Positions 2,398 to 15,823 of a stretch of 32,675 nt of DNA are shown here, in pieces (positions within the stretch are counted from its first letter, which is position 1; each line of letters starts with the position of its first letter). Source of the DNA: a virus. Under the pieces are notes generated by a model. That model had not been told where the DNA came from and did no database searches. It was given only the letters and a program-made list of their open reading frames with translations. The DNA is taken from IMG/VR virus record IMGVR_UViG_3300037586_000561, positions 1-32,675 of that record; one strand, written 5' to 3'. Both the position numbers and the translations under genes were made by a program.

Positions 2398-2435
2398 ATA
2401 TATTATAATTAACAATTATGTTTTCTGGAGAAAAC

Positions 2436-3128
2436 ATGGATAAGCATATATTAAACATAATTACTTCCTTGCATGAAGGAAGTAATAGAATAGTCTGCCC
2501 CTTCTGCGAAGGAGGCAGTAGTAAAGAAAAGAGTTTTATAATTACTAAAGAGGGTAGAAATGTAAAGTATATGTGCCACAGAGCATCTTGCAATGCTCGT
2601 GGTAATACAAACTACAGAGGAGAACTACAACAATCTGCACAACCAGTACAGGCTCCTGTACTAACAACACCCTCAGAGGGTGTATATGCTCTCAGGAGCG
2701 TTAGGGACAACTTAGGCAGGGATAGGGGAGGAGTTTATAGGAGAAAGCCTACAGCGCCCTCTCAGCTGCCCAAGGATATCAATCGTATTGATGATGATTG
2801 GTGTAAGCTACACTTCCCTGCACCAACAGACGCTAAGTGTGTCATCCTCGTAGAGGATATTATTAGTGCAGAGAAGATGCACCCATTCTTCCCTTGTGTT
2901 GCATTGCTTGGTGTACATCTGAATGAACAGAAACTTGCCTACCTAGTAGAGCAAGGGGTGAGGCATGTGATTGTAGCCTTGGACAATGACGCAACACGGC
3001 AAGCTATACGTATTGCTCGTAAGTGGTTATTTGATACAACAATACTTCCCTTGCAAAGGGATTTAAAGGACGAGACATATGAAAGACTACAAGAAATTGC
3101 AGATAATCTCAAATCAAATCAGATGTGA
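2436..3128 (+). CDS. DNA primase (zinc-binding + Toprim)
   Basis: A 230-residue primase that would lay down RNA primers at the replication fork. The N-terminal zinc domain has C21 and C24 (CPFCEGG) and the C47-H48...C52 cluster (CHRASC), the form common in marine podophage primases. A Pro/Gln-rich linker (about 65-115) follows. The catalytic Toprim core then shows the Glu motif at 140 (ILVEDIISAE) and the DxD-type motif at 183-185 (ALDNDA). No helicase domain is fused; the helicase is a separate gene downstream, unlike T7 gp4. I prefer ATG 2436, which has TGGAG 5 bases upstream, over the in-frame ATG 2418, which has no ribosome binding site. The 3' end overlaps the next gene by 50 bases. Confidence 0.85.
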   Translation: MDKHILNIITSLHEGSNRIVCPFCEGGSSKEKSFIITKEGRNVKYMCHRASCNARGNTNYRGELQQSAQPVQAPVLTTPSEGVYALRSVRDNLGRDRGGVYRRKPTAPSQLPKDINRIDDDWCKLHFPAPTDAKCVILVEDIISAEKMHPFFPCVALLGVHLNEQKLAYLVEQGVRHVIVALDNDATRQAIRIARKWLFDTTILPLQRDLKDETYERLQEIADNLKSNQM

Positions 3129-3411: not shown

Positions 3412-3931
3412 TGTGTACCTGATATCCGACTTACACCTAGGGCATAAGAATATTCTGGAGTTTGCAGGGAGGTATAGAGCTTGGGCTGACACTGTATTAG
3501 AGCATGATCGCGTCCTAATTGAGCGTATACGCTCTGTGTGCAGAAGTAAGAGAGATGTGTTGTACATCCTTGGAGATGTAGCTATGGGGGTTAAGCAGCT
3601 AGAGTTGTTGAATGAAATACCTGCACGTAAAATACTTGTGAGAGGTAATCACGACACATTCCAAGATGGTGTATACATGAAGTATTTTGACAGCATACAA
3701 GGTATCATACATAAGCGCTACCATGGGCAAGGGTATTGGTTTAGTCATGCTCCTATACACCCACACGAGCTTAGAGGGAGGAAGAATGTACATGGCCACA
3801 CACATGGCAATCTTATCATGAAGAGTGGGTGTGTGCAGGACAAGGATTACATCAATGTGTGTGTAGAGAATTGTAATGGCTATCCTGTCAATACATCAGA
3901 ATTGGAGACATTTAGAGGAGAGATAAAGTGA
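3404..3931 (+). CDS. calcineurin-like metallophosphoesterase
   Basis: A compact 175-residue two-metal phosphoesterase. The family motifs are all present in order: D9-x-H11 (SDLHLGH), G-D58 (ILGDVAMG), G-N82-H83-D (RGNHD), H115 (FSHAPI) and G-H132-x-H134 (VHGHTHG). Single-domain phage proteins of this type are thought to hydrolyse phosphodiesters or phosphate groups of nucleotides, but the substrate cannot be told from sequence. It is unrelated in detail to the second phosphoesterase at 10929, which has a DxQ first motif. The stop overlaps the next gene as GTGA, and the start overlaps the previous gene by 8 bases. Confidence 0.85.
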   Translation: MSNVYLISDLHLGHKNILEFAGRYRAWADTVLEHDRVLIERIRSVCRSKRDVLYILGDVAMGVKQLELLNEIPARKILVRGNHDTFQDGVYMKYFDSIQGIIHKRYHGQGYWFSHAPIHPHELRGRKNVHGHTHGNLIMKSGCVQDKDYINVCVENCNGYPVNTSELETFRGEIK

Positions 3932-4233
3932 ATACTGCGCAAGAGTTAAAGGCCATCAAGAGATGGCAGGGGCTAAAAAAGAAATGTGATGACACGGGCA
4001 TGGAGTTTAATCTGTCTGTAGCAGATGTGCGTGCGTTAATCATTAAGACTAGGTGTCACTACACAGGTAAAGATATTAAATACGGAGATCAAGGGGGCCA
4101 TTTTAGTTTAGATCGAAAGGACAGCTCTCAGGGATACATCAAAGGAAACGTAGTGGCCTGTCACGGTGTGGTGAATAGCTTTAAGGCCAATTTATCGAAG
4201 ATTGATATCCAGAAGATATTGAGGAAGTTATAA
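3928..4233 (+). CDS. HNH-like nuclease-related small protein
   Basis: A 101-residue protein with a GTG start overlapping the phosphoesterase stop. The central and C-terminal part shows CHYTGKDI (C43), SLDRKDSSQGYIKGNVVACHGVVN (residues 60-83, split here as SLDRKDSSQGY then IKGNVVACHGVVN) and an N-x-FK element. This resembles the phage HNH-type fold in which a CxxTG knuckle precedes LDRxDxxxGYxxGNV and an Asn. A canonical HH or DH catalytic pair is not obvious, so it may be a minimal or inactive homing-type nuclease, or a DNA-binding relative. It is sandwiched between the phosphoesterase and the helicase with no gap, which argues for a resident gene rather than a recent free-standing insertion. 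Confidence 0.6.
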   Translation: MNTAQELKAIKRWQGLKKKCDDTGMEFNLSVADVRALIIKTRCHYTGKDIKYGDQGGHFSLDRKDSSQGYIKGNVVACHGVVNSFKANLSKIDIQKILRKL

Positions 4234-5412
4234 TTGAATAGAGAACAGCGTATTCTATCAGCTATTATGACCAGCAGGGAAGCGTATAATAGCATCGTAG
4301 GGATTAGAGAGGAGTATGATTTTAGTGAACAGGGGTGGTTATTAGTACAAGAGATTGATGGGTTTTATGACAATGACGGAGACGTGAGCTACGTAGATAG
4401 GGATACAATAAAGGATGTTATTGCACGTAAATTCCCTAAAGCATCAGGCATTATCAATGCTGTTATAGACAATCTGGAAGATGTTAGCGTTAGCAACGCT
4501 GTTGCAGAGTATGTTGATTTGAAGCGTGAGGCGTTGGAACATGCCTTAGCTGACAAGCTGTTAGCAGGAGAAGATTATTCAGATCTGATGGAGAAGTTGG
4601 TTGCTGTTGATGGCTTGGAGGAGCATGAAGAGGAGACAGTGTTTATTGGTACAGACATTGATGACATTTTAGCAGCATCCTCAGCAGAAAATCTAATACG
4701 TGTACACCCACCAAGCTTAAATGACAGGCTGGATGGTGGGTTTAGTCCCGGACATCAGGCTGTTATCTATGCCCCCACAGAAGTGGGGAAGAGTTTATTA
4801 GCACTGAACATAGCCTGTGGCTTCCTTAGAGAGGGTAGGAGGGTGTTGTATTGTGGTAACGAAGACCCAAGTAGGAGTATGCTTCTGCGTGTCTTTAGCA
4901 ACCTCTCAGGGATGACTAAGGAGGAGATTAGAACAGATCCCAGAGGTGCTACACAATTAGCCAGAGCTAATGGCTATGACAATCTAATATTCAAGGAGAT
5001 GACTCCCGGAAGTTTAAGAGAGGTACGAACATTAACAGAGAGGTATAGCCCTGAAGTGGTGTTTATTGATCAGATGGCTAACATGGAGTGCCGTAGCTCT
5101 AGTAAGGTGGAGAAGAATGAAATACTAGCTTGTGGCTTAAGAGCAATGGCTAAGAAGTATGGTGTTGTATCCATCATCTTACACCAAGCATCAGACGATG
5201 CTTATGGTAGGAATATTCTAGAGAAGAATCATCTGTATTATTCTAACGTAGGAGTGCAGGGACAGATGGATGTAATGATTGGTATGGGTATGGATAGTAG
5301 TTATGAGCAGCAAGATCTGCGCATGCTATGTCTTACAAAGAATAAACTATCTGGATGTCATGAGAGCTTTCCTGTTCGTGTCAATCCAGCATTATCGAGG
5401 GTAGAAGAATGA
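4234..5412 (+). CDS. DnaB-like replicative helicase (RecA/KaiC fold)
   Basis: A 392-residue hexameric-helicase-type ATPase that would unwind DNA at the fork. The N-terminal 150 residues are a short helical domain. The RecA core starts near 155 with LNDRLDGGFSPGHQAVIYA and the Walker A loop APTEVGKS (180-187), where the usual Gly before GKS is Val. Walker B is VVFIDQMAN (about 273-281), and a sensor-like ILHQASDD follows. It starts with TTG, positioned by GAGGA 8 bases upstream and by immediate contact with the previous stop. No primase domain is fused. The stop overlaps the next start as ATGA, so the sigma-4-like protein is probably translated together with it. Confidence 0.85.
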   Translation: MNREQRILSAIMTSREAYNSIVGIREEYDFSEQGWLLVQEIDGFYDNDGDVSYVDRDTIKDVIARKFPKASGIINAVIDNLEDVSVSNAVAEYVDLKREALEHALADKLLAGEDYSDLMEKLVAVDGLEEHEEETVFIGTDIDDILAASSAENLIRVHPPSLNDRLDGGFSPGHQAVIYAPTEVGKSLLALNIACGFLREGRRVLYCGNEDPSRSMLLRVFSNLSGMTKEEIRTDPRGATQLARANGYDNLIFKEMTPGSLREVRTLTERYSPEVVFIDQMANMECRSSSKVEKNEILACGLRAMAKKYGVVSIILHQASDDAYGRNILEKNHLYYSNVGVQGQMDVMIGMGMDSSYEQQDLRMLCLTKNKLSGCHESFPVRVNPALSRVEE

Positions 5413-5681
5413 GAGAAGACGTGATGACAGTGGGAGAAGTAGCAGCAGCCTTAAACCTATCTGAAATAGGTGTGAAGAGAATACAAGCCAGAGCTTTAGC
5501 TAAGATAGCAGCTAGTTTAACGGAGGATGACATGGAAGGTATTAGAGAGTTGTTACAAGAGTCTGAGGTGGATGAGACTATGTTTGGGGTTATGACAGAT
5601 GCTATGTACCAATCATCTTTTGACTTCGAGGATGATGGGTTGGGGGATTTTTGGAAGGAAGAGAATGTTAGTGAACAGTAG
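5409..5681 (+). CDS. stand-alone sigma-region-4-like HTH protein
   Basis: A 90-residue protein whose first third reads as a sigma70 region 4.2 helix-turn-helix: TVGEVAAALNLSEIGVKRIQ (residues 7-26) then ARALAKI, following the sigma pattern T-x-x-E-V-(x5-6)-S/T-x-x-x-V-R-x-I-x-A-x-A-L-x-K. No region 2 or 3 is present. Residues 40-90 are strongly acidic. The start ATG overlaps the helicase stop (ATGA) and has GAGGG 7 bases upstream; an internal ATG at codon 6 begins exactly at the HTH. A DNA-binding role at -35-like sequences, or a bridge to host RNA polymerase, is inferred from the motif. Sequence-only alternatives are another LuxR- or RepA-type HTH. The stop lies inside the first 19-bp direct repeat. 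Confidence 0.65.
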   Translation: MREDVMTVGEVAAALNLSEIGVKRIQARALAKIAASLTEDDMEGIRELLQESEVDETMFGVMTDAMYQSSFDFEDDGLGDFWKEENVSEQ

Positions 5682-5692
5682 ATAATGTCGAG
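5674..5692 (+). repeat. 19-bp direct repeat, copy 1
   Basis: aacagtagataatgtcgag matches 5902-5920 at 18 of 19 positions (G at 5681 versus A in the second copy). This copy contains the stop codon of the sigma-4-like gene and supplies the GAGG ribosome binding site of the 65-codon gene that follows. Confidence 0.75.
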
Positions 5693-5701
5693 GATTGAAT
5701 T

Positions 5702-5899
5702 ATGACGCAACCTACTCATGAAGTATGCGAAAGACTATTAGGAGGGCATATATTTAAAAACTTTCTTAAAGAACCTATTCAGCCTGAGCTTGTACCGCGC
5801 CATTTTAATAGCGTACCAGAAACACCAGAGAGATTTCAGTACTGGCAGCATAGGTATTGCCAGAGATGTGGCTTTGAGGATGTACGAAAAGAACGATAG
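5702..5899 (+). CDS. 65-residue hypothetical protein in a repeat-bounded cassette
   Basis: I do not recognise this 65-residue protein. It has a GHIFKNFLKEP stretch, a proline-rich centre and, near the C-terminus, the knuckle YCQRCGFEDV. With C9 and nearby histidines this could make a single zinc site, but the spacing is irregular. ATG 5702 has GAGG about 8 bases upstream, and this ribosome binding site is part of the first 19-bp direct repeat. The gene is bounded on both sides by that repeat, so recombination between the copies would remove it cleanly; this makes it a likely optional (moron-like) insertion or a duplication relic. Confidence 0.55.
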   Translation: MTQPTHEVCERLLGGHIFKNFLKEPIQPELVPRHFNSVPETPERFQYWQHRYCQRCGFEDVRKER

Positions 5900-5901
5900 A
5901 C

Positions 5902-5920
5902 AACAGTAAATAATGTCGAG
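5902..5920 (+). repeat. 19-bp direct repeat, copy 2
   Basis: aacagtaaataatgtcgag, one mismatch from 5674-5692. It lies between the stop of the 65-codon gene and the start of the alanine-rich gene and provides that gene's GAGAG translation signal. Confidence 0.75.
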
Positions 5921-5930
5921 AGATAACTGT

Positions 5931-6233
5931 ATGAATAAATATATTGAAATAGTTAAAAAGTGGTTAGCTGATAGTAGCGCAGTAACCAGCGAGGAGCTTA
6001 AAGCGAATTCGGATATGGCCTATGCAGCCTATGCAGCAGCAGCCGTCAGAGCCGCTGATGCAGCCAATGAAGCCGCCAATGCAGCCTTTGCAGCCTATGT
6101 AGATCATGAATCCGCCCATGGCGCGGAATTGGCCGCCAGAGCCGCCGCCAGAGCCTCCTATTACGCCCACCAAAACGACGCGGAAAGGGCCAAGAAGTGG
6201 TTAAACGAATATAAAGAAGTAACCGGGAGGTAA
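5931..6233 (+). CDS. alanine-rich helical repeat protein
   Basis: A 100-residue protein whose central half is almost entirely Ala with spaced Tyr, Asp, Asn, Glu and Arg (AYAAYAAAAVRAADAANEAA and onward), flanked by an N-terminal amphipathic start (NKYIEIVKKWLAD) and a C-terminal AKKWLNEYKEV. Such A-x-A-A units recur every three to four residues and would form a long helix or coiled hairpin. Similar Ala-repeat proteins of unknown function are scattered across phages and vary in repeat number. The underlying DNA is a GCAGCC/GCCGCC-rich stretch, clearly more G+C-rich than its neighbours. I chose ATG 5931 over 5913 because the GAGAG signal then falls upstream, exactly as in the neighbouring gene that shares the direct repeat. 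No function can be assigned. Confidence 0.6.
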   Translation: MNKYIEIVKKWLADSSAVTSEELKANSDMAYAAYAAAAVRAADAANEAANAAFAAYVDHESAHGAELAARAAARASYYAHQNDAERAKKWLNEYKEVTGR

Positions 6234-6237
6234 CTAT

Positions 6238-6534
6238 ATGGAACACTGTGATAAGTGCCACAGTCAGTTAGATAGGGAAGGCTTTCACTACCACATGACT
6301 GAATGTGTTAAGCAAGAAATTATAGGGCTTACGGCACAGCTCCAAGCATATCAAAGGCTTGCTGCCAAAGGCATTTATTATTCTATCGAAGAATTGGCGG
6401 AACACGATCAGGTGGTTGAACTCAGAACACTTAATTTAATCAAAAGAATTGCAGCAGATCACCCCTTTACTGTAGACCCTAGGGATCATGCTGAATTCTT
6501 TGAAACAGTGTATTGGAAGATTGCCAAGATTTAG
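6238..6534 (+). CDS. small protein with N-terminal C2HC-type zinc motif
   Basis: A 98-residue protein that I cannot assign to a family. The first 25 residues (CDKCHSQLDREGFHYHMTEC) hold two Cys, two His and a final Cys spaced as in a C2HC or C2H2 finger. The remainder is predicted helix with a central heptad-like stretch (LTAQLQAYQRLAAKGIYYSI). ATG 6238 is preceded by GGGAGG and lies 4 bases after the previous stop. Its TAG stop is embedded in the 5' arm of an 8-bp stem, and the same frame then stays open for 39 codons to 6654. Confidence 0.6.
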   Translation: MEHCDKCHSQLDREGFHYHMTECVKQEIIGLTAQLQAYQRLAAKGIYYSIEELAEHDQVVELRTLNLIKRIAADHPFTVDPRDHAEFFETVYWKIAKI

Positions 6535-6568
6535 ATAGCGTCATTAGATCGAAAACCGGGCGCTATCT
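6533..6568 (+). other. 8-bp stem-loop overlapping a stop codon
   Basis: AGATAGCG (6533-6540) and CGCTATCT (6561-6568) pair perfectly around a 20-base loop. No T-run follows, so it is a poor intrinsic terminator. The rest of the gap (6569-6659) holds no independent gene; a weak promoter-like pair, TTGTCG (6621-6626) and TATTAA (6645-6650) with 18-base spacing, lies just ahead of the polymerase gene. Confidence 0.4.
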
Positions 6569-6659
6569 CATTTCTGAAATTGAATGGATCGAACGGCGTG
6601 AAAATACACAAACCTAAGATTTGTCGAAAAAGAGTGTTGGGAAATATTAAATAATTAAC

Positions 6660-6666: not shown

Positions 6667-8496
6667 ATGATGAATGTTGAAGAGTTTCTTAGAGCCCCTA
6701 CCCCAGAGATTTACATGGGGGAGCGGATTACTTTGGATTGTGAGACAACTAATATTAACTACGGCGATAGCTGCAACGCTGATAATAGGCTTATACTTAC
6801 TTGTCATACTAACAGCGATGGCTCTATCAGTAGTATATGGGGCGGATTGGGCAGCAGTAGTCTTGACCATCTCATTTCTAGAATAGAGAATTTAGAGGGT
6901 TTTGTTGTTGGACATAACATTAAGTTTGATTTACGTTGGCTGGCTAGGCATGGCCTAGATGTTAGCAAGGTAGTTGTGTGGGATACGATGATTGCAGAAC
7001 ATGTATTCTATGGCAACCGACCACCAAATATTGGTGTTGGTTTGGGAGAGGTAGCTAAACGCTACGACCTCCCCGGCAAGGAGCCGTACATAGATTTGTG
7101 CATCAAAGGGAAACTGTGCCCGTCAGAGCTACCACGTAGTTTGTTACAGAGGAGATGTGAGTATGATGTAGGGGTAACAGATGGTGTGTTTAAAAGGCAA
7201 CTACAGAGAGCTATAGAGGAGGATAAGCTTAAGACGATATTAACTAGGTGTTTGTTAACACCTGTGTTAGCTGACATAGAAACAAAAGGATTGAAGCTAG
7301 ATGCTGATGCTGTAAATACAAGCTATCATAAAGCAATCAAAGAACAACATGAAATCACTACATCCTTAGCGGAGGTAGCAAGTATTAATTGGAATAGCCC
7401 TATGCAAGTGGCGGAGGTGGTGTATGGAGAGTACGGATTTAAGGAGTTGGTTGGCAGAGATAAGCAGCCAATTAGGACAGCTACAGGTAGAGCTAAAGCT
7501 GATGTCGGGACGATTAGAAAGCTTACAGCAAGGACAAATAAGCAGAAAACGCTCAAAGGATTGCTTAATCGAAGAAGTATTGTAGAAGCACAGCTTACAA
7601 AGACATTAAACAAATTCAAAGCATGTGTAGATAATGAGGATATGCTATATGCACAGTTTAATCAGGCCATCACACAGACACATAGGCTTTCTTCGTCTGG
7701 CACGGAATATGGGGTGCAATTCCAGAACATGCCCAGAATATTCAAGCCTTGTGTCACGTCGCGTAACGAGGGCTGGGATGTTCTCGAAGCTGATGGTGCG
7801 CAATTGGAATTTCGTGTCGCTGCATTCCTTGGGCAAGACAAGCAGGCAATATATGACATAGAGAATGGTGTAGATGTACACAGCTTCACAGCAGAGACAA
7901 TAACAGCAGCAGGACAGGAGACAGATAGGCAGACAGCTAAGGCACACACGTTTAAACCATTATTCGGAGGTAGGAGTGGTACGACAGCAGAGAAAGCGTA
8001 TTACAAGGCATTTAAAGAGAAGTACAAGGGTGTGGCACAAGCACAGGAAGGATGGAAGAACACCACAATTAGAGATAAGAAGTTTAGAATGGCTTCAGGG
8101 ATGGAATTCTTCTTCCCAAGAATAAAAGCTTCTCGCTCTAAGGATGGGTATATACCAGAAGAGAGTAATATATTCAACTATCCCATACAGAGCTTTGCAA
8201 CAGCAGATATCATACCAATATGTATTATATACACATGGCATGCTATGAAAGCAGCAGGTTTGAAGAGCTTTATCTTTAACACAGTGCATGACTCTATCAT
8301 TATTGAGAGGTGTACAGAAGAAAAGGAGAAATTAAATGAAATAATAGTATACTGTTTTGGAAAAGCATGTTATAATTATCTTAAGGTGGTTTATGACGTA
8401 GAGTTTAACGTCCCACTGGGATGCGGCATTAAAGCCGGAAGTAATTGGGGAGTAGGAGATGAAGAAGTATTCTCCCTCCCAACACCGTATAAATAG
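6667..8496 (+). CDS. family A DNA polymerase with 3'-5' exonuclease domain
   Basis: The 609-residue replicative polymerase. Exonuclease motifs: Exo I D24-x-E26 (LDCETTN), Exo II N84 and D88 (GHNIKFDL), Exo III D167 (RRCEYDVGVT), where the usual Tyr four residues before the Asp is Arg163. Polymerase motifs: A, D376 and E381 (DGAQLEFRV); B, R421, K425, F429 and F433 (RQTAKAHTFKPLFGG); C, H541 and D542 (VHDSI). The residue equivalent to E. coli 762 is therefore Phe, and the next conserved Tyr is also Phe. No N-terminal 5'-nuclease domain is fused; that activity is the separate gene at 9484. It is about 100 residues shorter than T7 gp5. The start is 6667 or 6670 from the AGGAGG above. Confidence 0.93.
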   Translation: MMNVEEFLRAPTPEIYMGERITLDCETTNINYGDSCNADNRLILTCHTNSDGSISSIWGGLGSSSLDHLISRIENLEGFVVGHNIKFDLRWLARHGLDVSKVVVWDTMIAEHVFYGNRPPNIGVGLGEVAKRYDLPGKEPYIDLCIKGKLCPSELPRSLLQRRCEYDVGVTDGVFKRQLQRAIEEDKLKTILTRCLLTPVLADIETKGLKLDADAVNTSYHKAIKEQHEITTSLAEVASINWNSPMQVAEVVYGEYGFKELVGRDKQPIRTATGRAKADVGTIRKLTARTNKQKTLKGLLNRRSIVEAQLTKTLNKFKACVDNEDMLYAQFNQAITQTHRLSSSGTEYGVQFQNMPRIFKPCVTSRNEGWDVLEADGAQLEFRVAAFLGQDKQAIYDIENGVDVHSFTAETITAAGQETDRQTAKAHTFKPLFGGRSGTTAEKAYYKAFKEKYKGVAQAQEGWKNTTIRDKKFRMASGMEFFFPRIKASRSKDGYIPEESNIFNYPIQSFATADIIPICIIYTWHAMKAAGLKSFIFNTVHDSIIIERCTEEKEKLNEIIVYCFGKACYNYLKVVYDVEFNVPLGCGIKAGSNWGVGDEEVFSLPTPYK

Positions 8497-12967: not shown

Positions 12968-13194
12968 GCAGGGATAAGAACAGCACCTACTACGATGTAG
13001 GAGGTATTGAGGTGTTGGATGTTATTAAAGCTAAGCTAACATCAGAACAATACATAGGGTATTTGTTAGGGAATGCTATTAAATACACATGCAGAGCTAA
13101 TTTCAAGGGTAGTATGGCTAGAGATATTGAGAAGGCTGCTAACTACACGAAGTGGATTGGGGAGTTGACAGAGGAGAACAATACAGTTGGATAA
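12964..13194 (+). CDS. DUF3310 family protein
   Basis: A 76-residue protein with the hallmark pattern of the phage DUF3310 family: a tyrosine start (STYYDVGGIEVLDVI), then EQYIGYLLGNAIKYTCRA, then FKG and DIEKAANYTKWI. This all-helical family is nearly universal in phages and often lies near nucleotide-metabolism genes; its biochemical function is not established. The gene overlaps both neighbours (4 bases at the start, 8 at the end), so its translation is likely coupled to nrdJ. Confidence 0.85.
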   Translation: MSRDKNSTYYDVGGIEVLDVIKAKLTSEQYIGYLLGNAIKYTCRANFKGSMARDIEKAANYTKWIGELTEENNTVG

Positions 13195-14499
13195 TTACGC
13201 AGAGTATATAGCCCTTAGCCGTTACGCTAGATGGGTGGAAGAGAAGGGTAGAAGAGAGACATGGCCTGAAACTGTACATAGATATATTAAGTTCTTTGAA
13301 GATAGGGGCTCCTTAGACGCAACCTTGGCTGAGAATTTAGCAGATTCTATTATAGATTTAGAAGTGATGCCCTCTATGCGCTGTCTTATGACAGCAGGGG
13401 ATGCATTAAACAGGGACAATGTAGCTGGCTTCAACTGTAGCTACTTAGCCATTGATCATGTACGTTGCTTTGATGAGCTTATGTACATCCTTATGTGTGG
13501 TACAGGGGTTGGGTTTAGTGTTGAGAGGCAATACATTGCCAAGCTACCAGAGATACCAGAGGAGTTGCATGAGTGTGACACAACTATTGCCGTAGCAGAT
13601 AGTAAGATAGGGTGGGCTAGTAGCTTTAAGCAGCTCATATCCCTGCTCTATGCTGGCCAGATCCCTAAGTGGGATGTTAGCCGAGTACGCGCTGCTGGAG
13701 CACCACTAAAAACATTTGGTGGGAGAGCTAGCGGCCCTCAGCCGCTTGAAGACTTGTTTAGCTTTGCAGTTAACCTCTTCAAAGCAGCTGTAGGACGCAA
13801 GTTTAATAGTATTGAATGTCATGACTTGGTGTGTAAGATTGCTGACATTGTTGTTGTTGGTGGGGTTAGGAGGAGTGCTCTTATCTCCCTGTCCAACTTA
13901 ACAGATGACAGGATGAGGAGAGCTAAATCAGGACAGTGGTGGGAAGACAACGGACAAAGAGCGTTAGCAAACAACAGTGCTTGTTATACAGAAAAGCCTG
14001 ACCTAATATCATTTATGAAAGAGTGGGAGAGTTTATATGAATCAAAATCAGGAGAGCGGGGAGTTTTCTCAAGAGTGGCAAGCCAGAGACAGGCTGCTAA
14101 GAATGTCAGGAGAGATAGTGGATGGGATTTTGGAACAAACCCATGTAGTGAGATCATCCTCCGACCCAATCAGTTCTGCAATCTCAGCGAAGTTGTGGTA
14201 CGAGCAGGAGATACAATGGGAGATCTTGAGCGCAAAGTGCGCCAAGCTGCAATCCTTGGCACGTTACAGAGCACACTCACTGACTTCCGATACCTAAGAA
14301 GTGTATGGAAACGTAACACTGAAGAAGAAGCTTTGCTTGGTGTGAGCTTGACAGGGATCATGGATAACGCTGTTCTGTCTAATAGCACTGACGATGATCT
14401 AGCAGCCCTCCTAGAGAGGCTTAAGGAGATAGTAGTTGAAACGAATAAAGAATGGGCTGAGAAGCTTGGTGTTAATCCTTCTACTGCCACCACTTGCGT
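13187..14499 (+). CDS. nrdJ: class II ribonucleotide reductase NrdJ, exon 1
   Basis: The first 437 codons plus two bases of codon 438 of a monomeric, adenosylcobalamin-type ribonucleotide reductase. Active-site residues follow the Lactobacillus RTPR layout: C84 (FNCSY) and C331 (FCNLSE) as the redox pair, thiyl-radical C320 with E322 (TNPCSEI), and exactly 11 residues between C320 and C331. The stretch ILMCGTGVGFSVER (101-114) is typical of this subclass. The start is TTG 13187, with GAGGAG 10 bases upstream; it places SRYARWVEEKGRRETW at the usual N-terminal position. Without splicing, the frame continues Val-Asn-Val and stops at TAG 14507-14509. Splicing to exon 2 gives a protein of 624 residues. 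Lack of an R2 subunit or activase in the window fits class II. Confidence 0.9.
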
Positions 14500-15261
14500 T
14501 AACGTTTAGCGCCATCATAGAGTAATTTATGAATGATAATCATGTGAACTGCTGGAAACCTAAGTTGAAAGATAGGGCAATCAGCAGCCAAGCCCCAGAG
14601 ATGGGGAAGGTTCAGAGACTATCCGAGAAGTCGGAGTACGCTCCAAGTGGAGCGGAAGCGCATGACATCCCACGGGATGAAGATATAGTCCGATCCCCAG
14701 AGAAATCTGAGGGCAGTGAGGTTAAGATGTTTTTATATTGGATAACATTTAAAGATACAGACAGCCTTTATATTGGAATCACTAACAATGTAAAGAGACG
14801 AATAGCTGCACATAAACAAGCAGCCAAGTCTGGCAAGAGCACTCCATTATATGCTTGTATTAGAAAGTATAATGAGTTTACTTTAACTGTTATGGAAACA
14901 TATAAAACTAGAGAAGAAGCTAATGACGCAGAGAAGTATTGGATTTCTTATGGAAGAGAGTGTTATTGGAAGCTTTTAAACTTAGCCGATGGCGGTGAAG
15001 GTGGTTTTGTTATAACGAATGTAGAAGATTGGAAGGGTAAATTAAGAGCAGCCCGTAGGGGTGCTAAGCCTTTCTTAGGAAAGACACATTCAGATCAAAC
15101 TAAAAAGTTGTGCGGTGTAGCAGGAAGCAAATTTAAGCTATACGATAAAGAAGAAGTCTTAAAGTATTCTTTTAAAGAAGCACATGAAAAGTTTGGTATT
15201 AGCAAAACTCACTACTACCGCCTAAAGCGGGCATAGAGTAACGATCTATGTTGAACTTTTG
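14500..15261 (+). ncRNA. group I intron (IA type) in nrdJ
   Basis: A 762-base self-splicing intron. P1: GCGTTAA (14496-14502) pairs with TTAGCGC (14506-14512), placing U14499 opposite G14509, the U-G pair that defines the 5' splice site. The last intron base is G (15261). Core helices: P3 TCATG/CATGA (14540-14544, 14661-14665), P4 CTGCTG/CAGCAG (14549-14554, 14582-14587), P5 CCTA/TAGG (14559-14562, 14573-14576), P6 CCCC/GGGG (14593-14596, 14603-14606), P7 GACTAT/ATAGTC (14617-14622, 14685-14690), a P7.1/7.2-like hairpin GCTCC/GGAGC (14639-14643, 14648-14652) typical of IA, and P8 CATCC/GGATG (14666-14670, 14675-14679). P9 has a GAAA tetraloop (14695-14713). The S element AAGATATAGTCC is textbook. 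A further hairpin, CATAGA/TCTATG, lies at 15232-15250. P10 could form between TTA 14506-14508 and exon 2 TAA. Confidence 0.93.
14727..15236 (+). CDS. GIY-YIG homing endonuclease (intron-encoded)
   Basis: A 169-residue homing endonuclease inserted after P9 of the intron. It opens with the GIY-YIG module: YWITFKDTDSLYIGITNN (residues 4-21) with the following VKRRIAAH Arg/His helix. The catalytic Glu is likely in the NDAEKYWISYG region or the LADGGEGG element. The C-terminus carries a NUMOD3-like PFLGKTHSDQTKKL and an IENR1/HTH-like YSFKEAHEKFGISKTHYYRL, both DNA-binding modules of such enzymes. ATG 14727 has GTGAGG 5 bases upstream. The frame is open back to 14529, but that part crosses the ribozyme core and is probably not used. 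The enzyme would cut intron-less nrdJ alleles and spread the intron. Confidence 0.88.
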   Translation: MFLYWITFKDTDSLYIGITNNVKRRIAAHKQAAKSGKSTPLYACIRKYNEFTLTVMETYKTREEANDAEKYWISYGRECYWKLLNLADGGEGGFVITNVEDWKGKLRAARRGAKPFLGKTHSDQTKKLCGVAGSKFKLYDKEEVLKYSFKEAHEKFGISKTHYYRLKRA

Positions 15262-15823
15262 TAAGCCTAGTGGCACTGTATCTCAGCTGGTTAACAGCAG
15301 TAGCGGTATTCATCCTCGTTTTTCTTCTCACTACGTCAGACGAGTGAGGGCTGATGTTAAAGATCCACTGAGCCAGTTGATGATTGATCAAGGTGTTCCA
15401 CACGAAGCGGATGTTATGAATCAGAACAACTATGTGTTTAGCTTTCCCCAGAAAGCACCAGAGAATGCTATCTGTACCTCTGATGTGTCTGCTATGGAAC
15501 AGCTTAAGCTGTGGAAGATTTACCAAGATAGCTGGTGTGAACACAAACCATCCATCACTGTGTATTATTCAGATGATGAATTCCTAGAGATAGGAGCTTG
15601 GTTGTATAAACACTTTGATGACATCTCTGGTATAAGCTTCTTGCCACGTAGTGAGCATACGTACAAGCAAGCACCTTACGAAGAGATTAATGAGGAGATG
15701 TATGAGGACATGAAGGCTAAGATGCCTGAGCTTAATTGGGGTTTGCTTGGCTCTTACGAGCAAGCTGACATGACAGAAGGGCAGCAGACATTAGCCTGCA
15801 CCGCAGGGGGTTGTGATATATGA
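15262..15823 (+). CDS. nrdJ: class II ribonucleotide reductase NrdJ, exon 2
   Basis: The C-terminal 187 residues of NrdJ. The joined codon is GT|T (Val438), after which the reading frame gives KPSGTVSQL, the conserved loop that contacts substrate phosphate. The exon ends in LACTAGGCDI, whose two cysteines are five residues apart, the same spacing as the C-terminal redox pair of RTPR that re-reduces the active site. Intron phase is 2. An independent ATG at 15248 lies inside the intron in the same frame, but a protein starting there would lack the active site. The stop overlaps the lysozyme start as ATGA. Confidence 0.88.

Follow-up and report, generated by a model that had tools for sequence, protein, structure and literature searches.

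A stand-alone sigma region 4.2-like protein encoded behind a viral replicative helicase, and the late promoter of its relatives

The viral DNA analysed here, IMG/VR record IMGVR_UViG_3300037586_000561 over its positions 1 to 32,675 (the whole stretch of 32,675 nucleotides (nt) is called the window below), encodes at 5409-5681 on the + strand a stand-alone protein of 90 amino acids (aa) with a sigma70 region 4.2-like helix-turn-helix (HTH) and a net charge of about -15. The protein belongs to a real family of small sigma-4.2 proteins with a conserved slot behind the helicase gene, and relatives of this virus carry a late promoter with a tandem TTGTAA site. Among the functions that we weighed, that of a late-gene activator, which would bind the tandem TTGTAA site and help the host sigma70-polymerase, appears the most likely, though we hold it tentatively and at somewhat under even chances. 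The conserved sigma-4.2 protein and the independently conserved late promoter provide concrete, testable parts of a late switch for marine Zobellviridae-like podoviruses, and should gene and site prove to be connected, part of a sigma factor would have become a stand-alone activator.

A small sigma region 4.2 family behind the helicase

The first-pass annotation of the window had described this open reading frame (ORF) as sigma-region-4-like, and the profile searches bore the region 4.2 relationship out. Pfam Sigma70_r4 (PF04545) matched all eight family members with a best E of 7.2e-8, and five of the eight exceeded the curated cut-off. The window protein was matched over residues 6-33 (5424-5507 on the + strand; profile positions 21-48 of 50) with E 1.1e-4 and 22.1 bits, which is below the curated cut-off of 24.1, and the six-frame reading of the same frame gave 25.9 bits. 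When a profile of the eight members was searched against the PDB, sigma-factor region 4 was found over about the first 40 profile positions with a best E of 1.4e-8; at E<=1 the matches comprised 94 distinct sequences, the best 60 of which were all sigma factors or sigma-4 chimeras. In all eight members the Sigma70_r4 alignment began only at profile position 19-22 of 50, indicating that the region 4.1 helices are missing throughout, and a complete region 4 including these helices was not found with this profile in any of the eight. The family thus shares with sigma70-family region 4 a region 4.2 HTH that is detectable by sequence in 8/8 members, but differs in having no region 4.1, no region 2 that could be found, and an added acidic Phe-Trp tail.

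Structure prediction was also carried out. The AlphaFold2 model of the window protein, which has a mean predicted local distance difference test (pLDDT) of 65.6, placed the HTH in helices 8-15 and 19-36, and that of the member in contig L012 showed an HTH with its first 30 residues at pLDDT around 90. Foldseek returned 8jzt, a sigma factor region 4, as the top match of the window model, with probability 0.98 but E 0.6; in a second fold search sigma-70 domain 4 chains were prominent, with weak Z values of up to 3.0. The L012 model gave similar lists, in which LuxR/GerE-type HTHs scored alike (best Z 3.5, no significant E-value). As the fold matches have no significant E-value and LuxR/GerE-type HTHs score equally, the family assignment rests on the sequence profiles, by which the 90-aa protein is a relative of sigma region 4.2.

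The same annotation had the ORF consist of an HTH and an acidic tail only, which proved nearly right, except that AlphaFold2 adds two low-confidence helices (39-51 and 58-70) between the two parts. The protein contains 22 D/E residues against 7 K/R. Its acidic tail (residues 75-85, DDGLGDFWKEE; 5631-5663 on the + strand) follows a family pattern of roughly [DE]xLx[GD]FW[NK][ED], and the top-scoring columns of the alignment are the C-terminal Phe-Trp, conserved in 7/8 members, rather than the HTH. The tail motif was not found in other proteins of the window or of two long relatives, G001 and G002 (three proteomes).

In the window, the gene is preceded on the same strand by a DnaB-like replicative helicase of 392 aa (4234-5412; phrog_19, E 9.5e-44), and its start codon overlaps the helicase TGA stop in an ATGA (5409-5412, + strand). 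The overlap with the helicase gene is real here, but the coupling that had been proposed is not general: in the window, L003, L013, L014, L016 and L017 the start codon lies at the end of the helicase gene or no more than about 20 nt from it, whereas an additional small ORF separates the two genes in L010, L011 and L012. The far flank of the slot is a PolA-type DNA polymerase of 609 aa (6667-8496, + strand; phrog_17).

The distribution of the family was determined through the helicase. A search of IMG/VR with the window protein itself yielded two identical contigs (L001, L002) and L003 at 59%. Helicase-based searches gave 24 contigs, 23 of which were examined after a 25% match (L065) was dropped. 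A homologue was present behind the DnaB helicase gene in 10 of the 23 (L001, L002, L003, L010, L011, L012, L013, L014, L016 and L017), and before the PolA-type polymerase where the contig extends that far; these comprise all eight contigs with a helicase identity of at least 66% and two at 44%. No homologue was found in the other 13 helicase contigs (L051 and L053-L064). In two of these, L053 and L054, the helicase-polymerase slot is taken by another ORF (6241-6579), of 112 aa, which matches an HTH weakly and whose tail ends in Trp. A 45-aa ORF on the - strand of L033 (18604-18741; G002 38604-38741) has a weak Sigma70_r4 match (E 8.5e-4) that includes the 4.1 part.

Beyond these contigs, the searches were negative. 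The sigma-4.2 protein profile found no family member in ten isolate records, mostly Zobellviridae (VpV262, SIO1, GX1, 1.209.O, 1.070.O, 1.253.O, ICP2, CRP-738, StenR_269 and Kpn1-P3); one weak PF04545 match, at 18.5 bits, was seen in 1.253.O. A tblastn search of the window protein against 50,697 phage records produced no direct homologue, and those of the L017 and L013 members gave only weak matches, namely to an ORF of a Campylobacter phage and to sigma factors of Vibrio phages. Scanning the genome contigs with the window protein gave no match, and a polymerase-based search over at least 80 loci, mostly distant relatives, revealed no further family member among the matches listed.

The late promoter of the relatives

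G001 (57.8 kb, the contig of L012) and G002 (50.0 kb, the contig of L014) carry their replication genes on the early strand; the late strand is opposite and begins near the large terminase. The divergent regions of both contain the 16-mer TTTTGTAAAGAATTGT, exactly 47 nt upstream of a -10 hexamer. A length of 16 nt exceeds every shared word in 200 shuffles; yet a second shared 16-mer, AGTCTGATCTTGACTA, exists between the early and late genes, at G001 31599 (L030 11599) and G002 4987 (L032 4987).

A terminase search gave 16 loci, and the upstream DNA of 12 of them was tested, the rest being short or duplicate. Five of the 12, from five species, contained TTGTAA-N4-TTGTAA (at most one mismatch per repeat) followed after 29-30 nt by TATAAT or TATACT: L148 (the G001 species), L149 (which is G002), L150, L151 and L152. 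The promoter was not found in the seven other upstream regions, one of which had just 762 nt available. This pattern occurred in none of 1000 shuffled sequences and once genome-wide in each of G001 and G002, and no tandem hexamer of such a layout was common to five shuffled leaders in 300 shuffle sets. An exact scan of all IMG/VR contigs hit only G001, G002, a further contig from the species of G001 and a single unrelated match due to chance. An operator-like site, which the sigma-4.2 protein may bind, is thus conserved in five species at a fixed 29-30 nt from the late -10, its tandem TTGTAA repeats lying one helical turn apart at about -57 to -42. The -10 is of the extended type (TATGNTATAMT) in four of the five late promoters, and no TTGACA-like -35 was common to the five.

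No late promoter of the relatives' type was found within the window. An extended -10 promoter-like core, TATGTTATAAT, lies at 2337-2347 on the + strand upstream of a DNA primase-like gene (2418-3128, + strand; phrog_47), which stands in the same gene run as the helicase, the 90-aa ORF and the polymerase. This putative promoter core matches that of the relatives' late promoters but is not accompanied by the tandem TTGTAA site. When the window was scanned for simple sigma70 promoters there was no excess over shuffles, and these scans were therefore left unused.

How the protein may act

The annotation had also stated that no phage RNA polymerase is seen in the window. For the single-subunit type (PF00940) this holds in all four records scanned, namely the window and its relatives of 57.8 kb, 50.0 kb and 15 kb, with phage T7 as positive control; none was found in VpV262 either. 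Sigma region 2 (PF04542) was likewise absent from the four records, while the controls gave matches in 10 of 14 genomes. Passages of PMC9960094 and PMC6775973 report Zobellviridae as having no RNA polymerase, and transcription is for this reason said to be one that "is regulated differently" (passage in PMC9960094).

In the mechanism that we propose, the sigma-4.2 protein would be made together with the replication proteins, and copies of it would bind TTGTAA-N4-TTGTAA ahead of the one late promoter with its extended -10, where the acidic Phe-Trp tail would perhaps recruit or open the host sigma70 RNA polymerase and so replace the missing -35 contact. We infer the link between protein and site from their co-occurrence and by elimination; binding of the site, contact of the tail with polymerase and the timing are likewise predictions of this model. 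Gene and site occur together in one record in G001 and G002, the two genomes of which both ends are available. Furthermore, the site-bearing contigs L150 and L152 share metagenomes (3300034190 and 3300047666) with the gene-bearing L010 and L011, which is suggestive only. When 20 further early proteins from G001 and G002 were scanned with Pfam, there was a single HTH-like match, to a 45-aa ORF of G002, leaving the sigma-4.2 gene as the only recognised DNA-binding regulator common to the two genomes. TTG is also the start of the -35 consensus read by region 4.2. As to the way of action, a promoter with paired sites upstream of its -10 and no clear -35 agrees better with an activator bound upstream than with a stand-in for sigma region 4.

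Several observations weigh against such an activator. Neither a helicase nor a sigma-4.2 gene was found in the 13 terminase contigs searched, so that gene and site are linked in two genomes only, and the window record does not contain its own late promoter. The elimination reaches as far as Pfam knowledge does, and silence in Pfam leaves room for other DNA-binding proteins. The position of the tandem site is also where the alpha subunits of polymerase contact UP elements. The HTH is swapped between the window and L003, which would be odd if one fixed late site had to stay recognised. Finally, the recognition-helix residues vary (EIGVKR in the window, RESVRR in L012, PEGVRL in L014, AVRAHQ in L010 and KQRAKQ in L011), while the site is nearly constant; the positions compared are those we take to correspond to residues 584-589 of E. 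coli sigma70. We also considered whether the recognition code of this sigma factor could be paired with TTGTAA, but no clear fit emerged, E at position 585 being present only in L003, L012 and L014.

The swap itself, and the variable recognition residues, favour a different function, in which the protein would act locally on the replication genes or on early promoters, as a repressor or autoregulator; allelic exchange of its HTH would then give related phages different specificities, as in immunity repressors. L003 and the window are about 97% identical over the helicase and the upstream genes; in 57 codons of the gene (5424-5594, + strand), L003 has a diverged allele with 52% nucleotide identity, a nonsynonymous divergence (dN) of 0.62 and a synonymous divergence (dS) of 1.99. 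By comparison, the helicase has a dS of 0.08 and the tail a dN of 0, and the tail and the DNA behind it are nearly identical. Judged from these alleles, the DNA-reading half has been exchanged and the tail, like the flanks, retained. The extended -10 and the hairpins upstream of the primase would also suit a local regulator, but the window's primase promoter showed no tandem TTGTAA site, nor was any other operator identified there, and we consider this function unlikely.

Another possibility, in line with the mechanism suggested in the annotation, is that the protein is a sigma-4 mimic on the beta flap of the host polymerase, displacing sigma70 region 4 and redirecting the polymerase in the manner of T4 gp33 or as the sigma-4 half of a split sigma. 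The homology to region 4 in the PDB profile search and late promoters without a clear -35 are consistent with this. However, all eight members lack region 4.1, whose helices contribute to the flap-tip pocket, and no sigma region 2 partner was found in any of the four records. The C-terminal hydrophobic-acidic motif is reminiscent of the gp33 and gp55 tails as these appear in passages of PMC2988020 and PMC7892883, although gp33 is described in such passages as structurally unrelated to sigma region 4. Taken together, a flap-bound mimic seems doubtful. A replication accessory protein, with its HTH on origin DNA and the acidic Phe-Trp tail docking on helicase, polymerase or clamp, would fit the conserved slot between helicase and polymerase and a tail more conserved than the HTH, but no other protein of the window, G001 or G002 was found to contain the tail motif, and the gene is missing from the 10 isolate records, whose replication or structural genes are related, so that we find this function quite improbable.

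Late-gene activation through the tandem site, which we continue to favour, could also be drawn more boldly, with a -35-reading sigma module turned into a free-standing activator: there would be two -35-like TTGTAA sites one helical turn apart in front of a promoter whose own -35 has been lost, a tail tying late transcription to the co-translated replication machinery, and a hairpin array completing the switch. We give this fuller version little credence.

Known systems resemble the proposed activator in part. Lambda cII is an activator on two direct repeats about 10 base pairs apart (TTGC-N6-TTGC); the likeness lies in the two direct repeats, but cII straddles the -35, whereas the repeats here are near -57 to -42. 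By analogy, T4 gp33 is the closest functional counterpart: according to passages of PMC2988020 and PMC7892883 it mimics sigma-4 while bound to the beta flap and carries a hydrophobic-acidic motif at its C-terminus, yet it lacks a sigma-4 fold and reads no DNA sequence. T4 gp33 (with gp55) and the present protein have in common a small size, a proposed sigma-4-like role, the use of host polymerase by the phage and perhaps the hydrophobic-acidic C-terminal motif; T4 differs in that its late promoters have no upstream element, and no gp55-like sigma region 2 was found in the present group. In phiEco32 and phage 7-11, described as neighbours of Zobellviridae (passages of PMC8948821 and PMC9960094), a phage sigma-type protein also redirects host polymerase to late genes. 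These proteins, gp36 and gp47, are late sigma subunits acting in holoenzyme, and the 7-11 late promoters read GTAAtg-16-aCTA (passages of PMC8948821); here, in contrast, only region 4.2 is present, and the promoter keeps a sigma70-like extended -10. RinA and Ltr of Gram-positive phages are, according to passages of PMC13123087, likewise small activators of the late operon, but they are basic, whereas the 90-aa protein is acidic and encoded in the replication gene run; nor does its gene lie directly upstream of the late promoter in the RinA/Ltr manner, since G001 and G002 have it far away from their late leader. In the literature covered by our search, no description of a late activator or late switch for Zobellviridae was found.

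Hairpin arrays and neighbouring features

Short hairpin arrays were observed behind the late promoter in all five late leaders (L148 at 2226-2475, L149, L150, L151 and L152), and the same arrays lie at L030:12330-12600 and L032:5750-6020. The RNA fold z of the late leaders was -6.6 to -9.9, compared with a minimum of -3.95 in 60 background windows. The stem sequences differ among species, with CTTA, CCTT or TTAAG at the tip in 14 of 24 hairpins. RNAalifold on three and on five leaders gave only the first hairpin as a common structure, and we therefore claim no conserved RNA fold; the array may serve the late switch as an RNA element. In the window, several hairpins, among them those at 2371-2397 and 2460-2486, follow TATGTTATAAT ahead of the primase gene; the RNA fold z over 2337-2486 was -5.6, and one hairpin tip there, ACCTTAAGT, resembles the late-leader tips.

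Around the sigma-4.2 gene, an exact repeat, ATAATGTCGAG, occurs at 5682-5692 and 5910-5920, just before small ORFs at 5702 and 5913; it was not an enriched motif across the whole window. The ORF at 5913-6233 is Ala-rich and has no convincing Pfam match. A 101-aa ORF between a phosphoesterase and the helicase (3928-4233) is missing from L003 despite about 97% identity on both sides. Farther downstream, at 13187-15823, a class II ribonucleotide reductase gene is divided into two ORFs that flank a GIY-YIG homing endonuclease (14529-15236), and an Rfam group I intron was matched within this split region at 14490-14712 with 109.5 bits.
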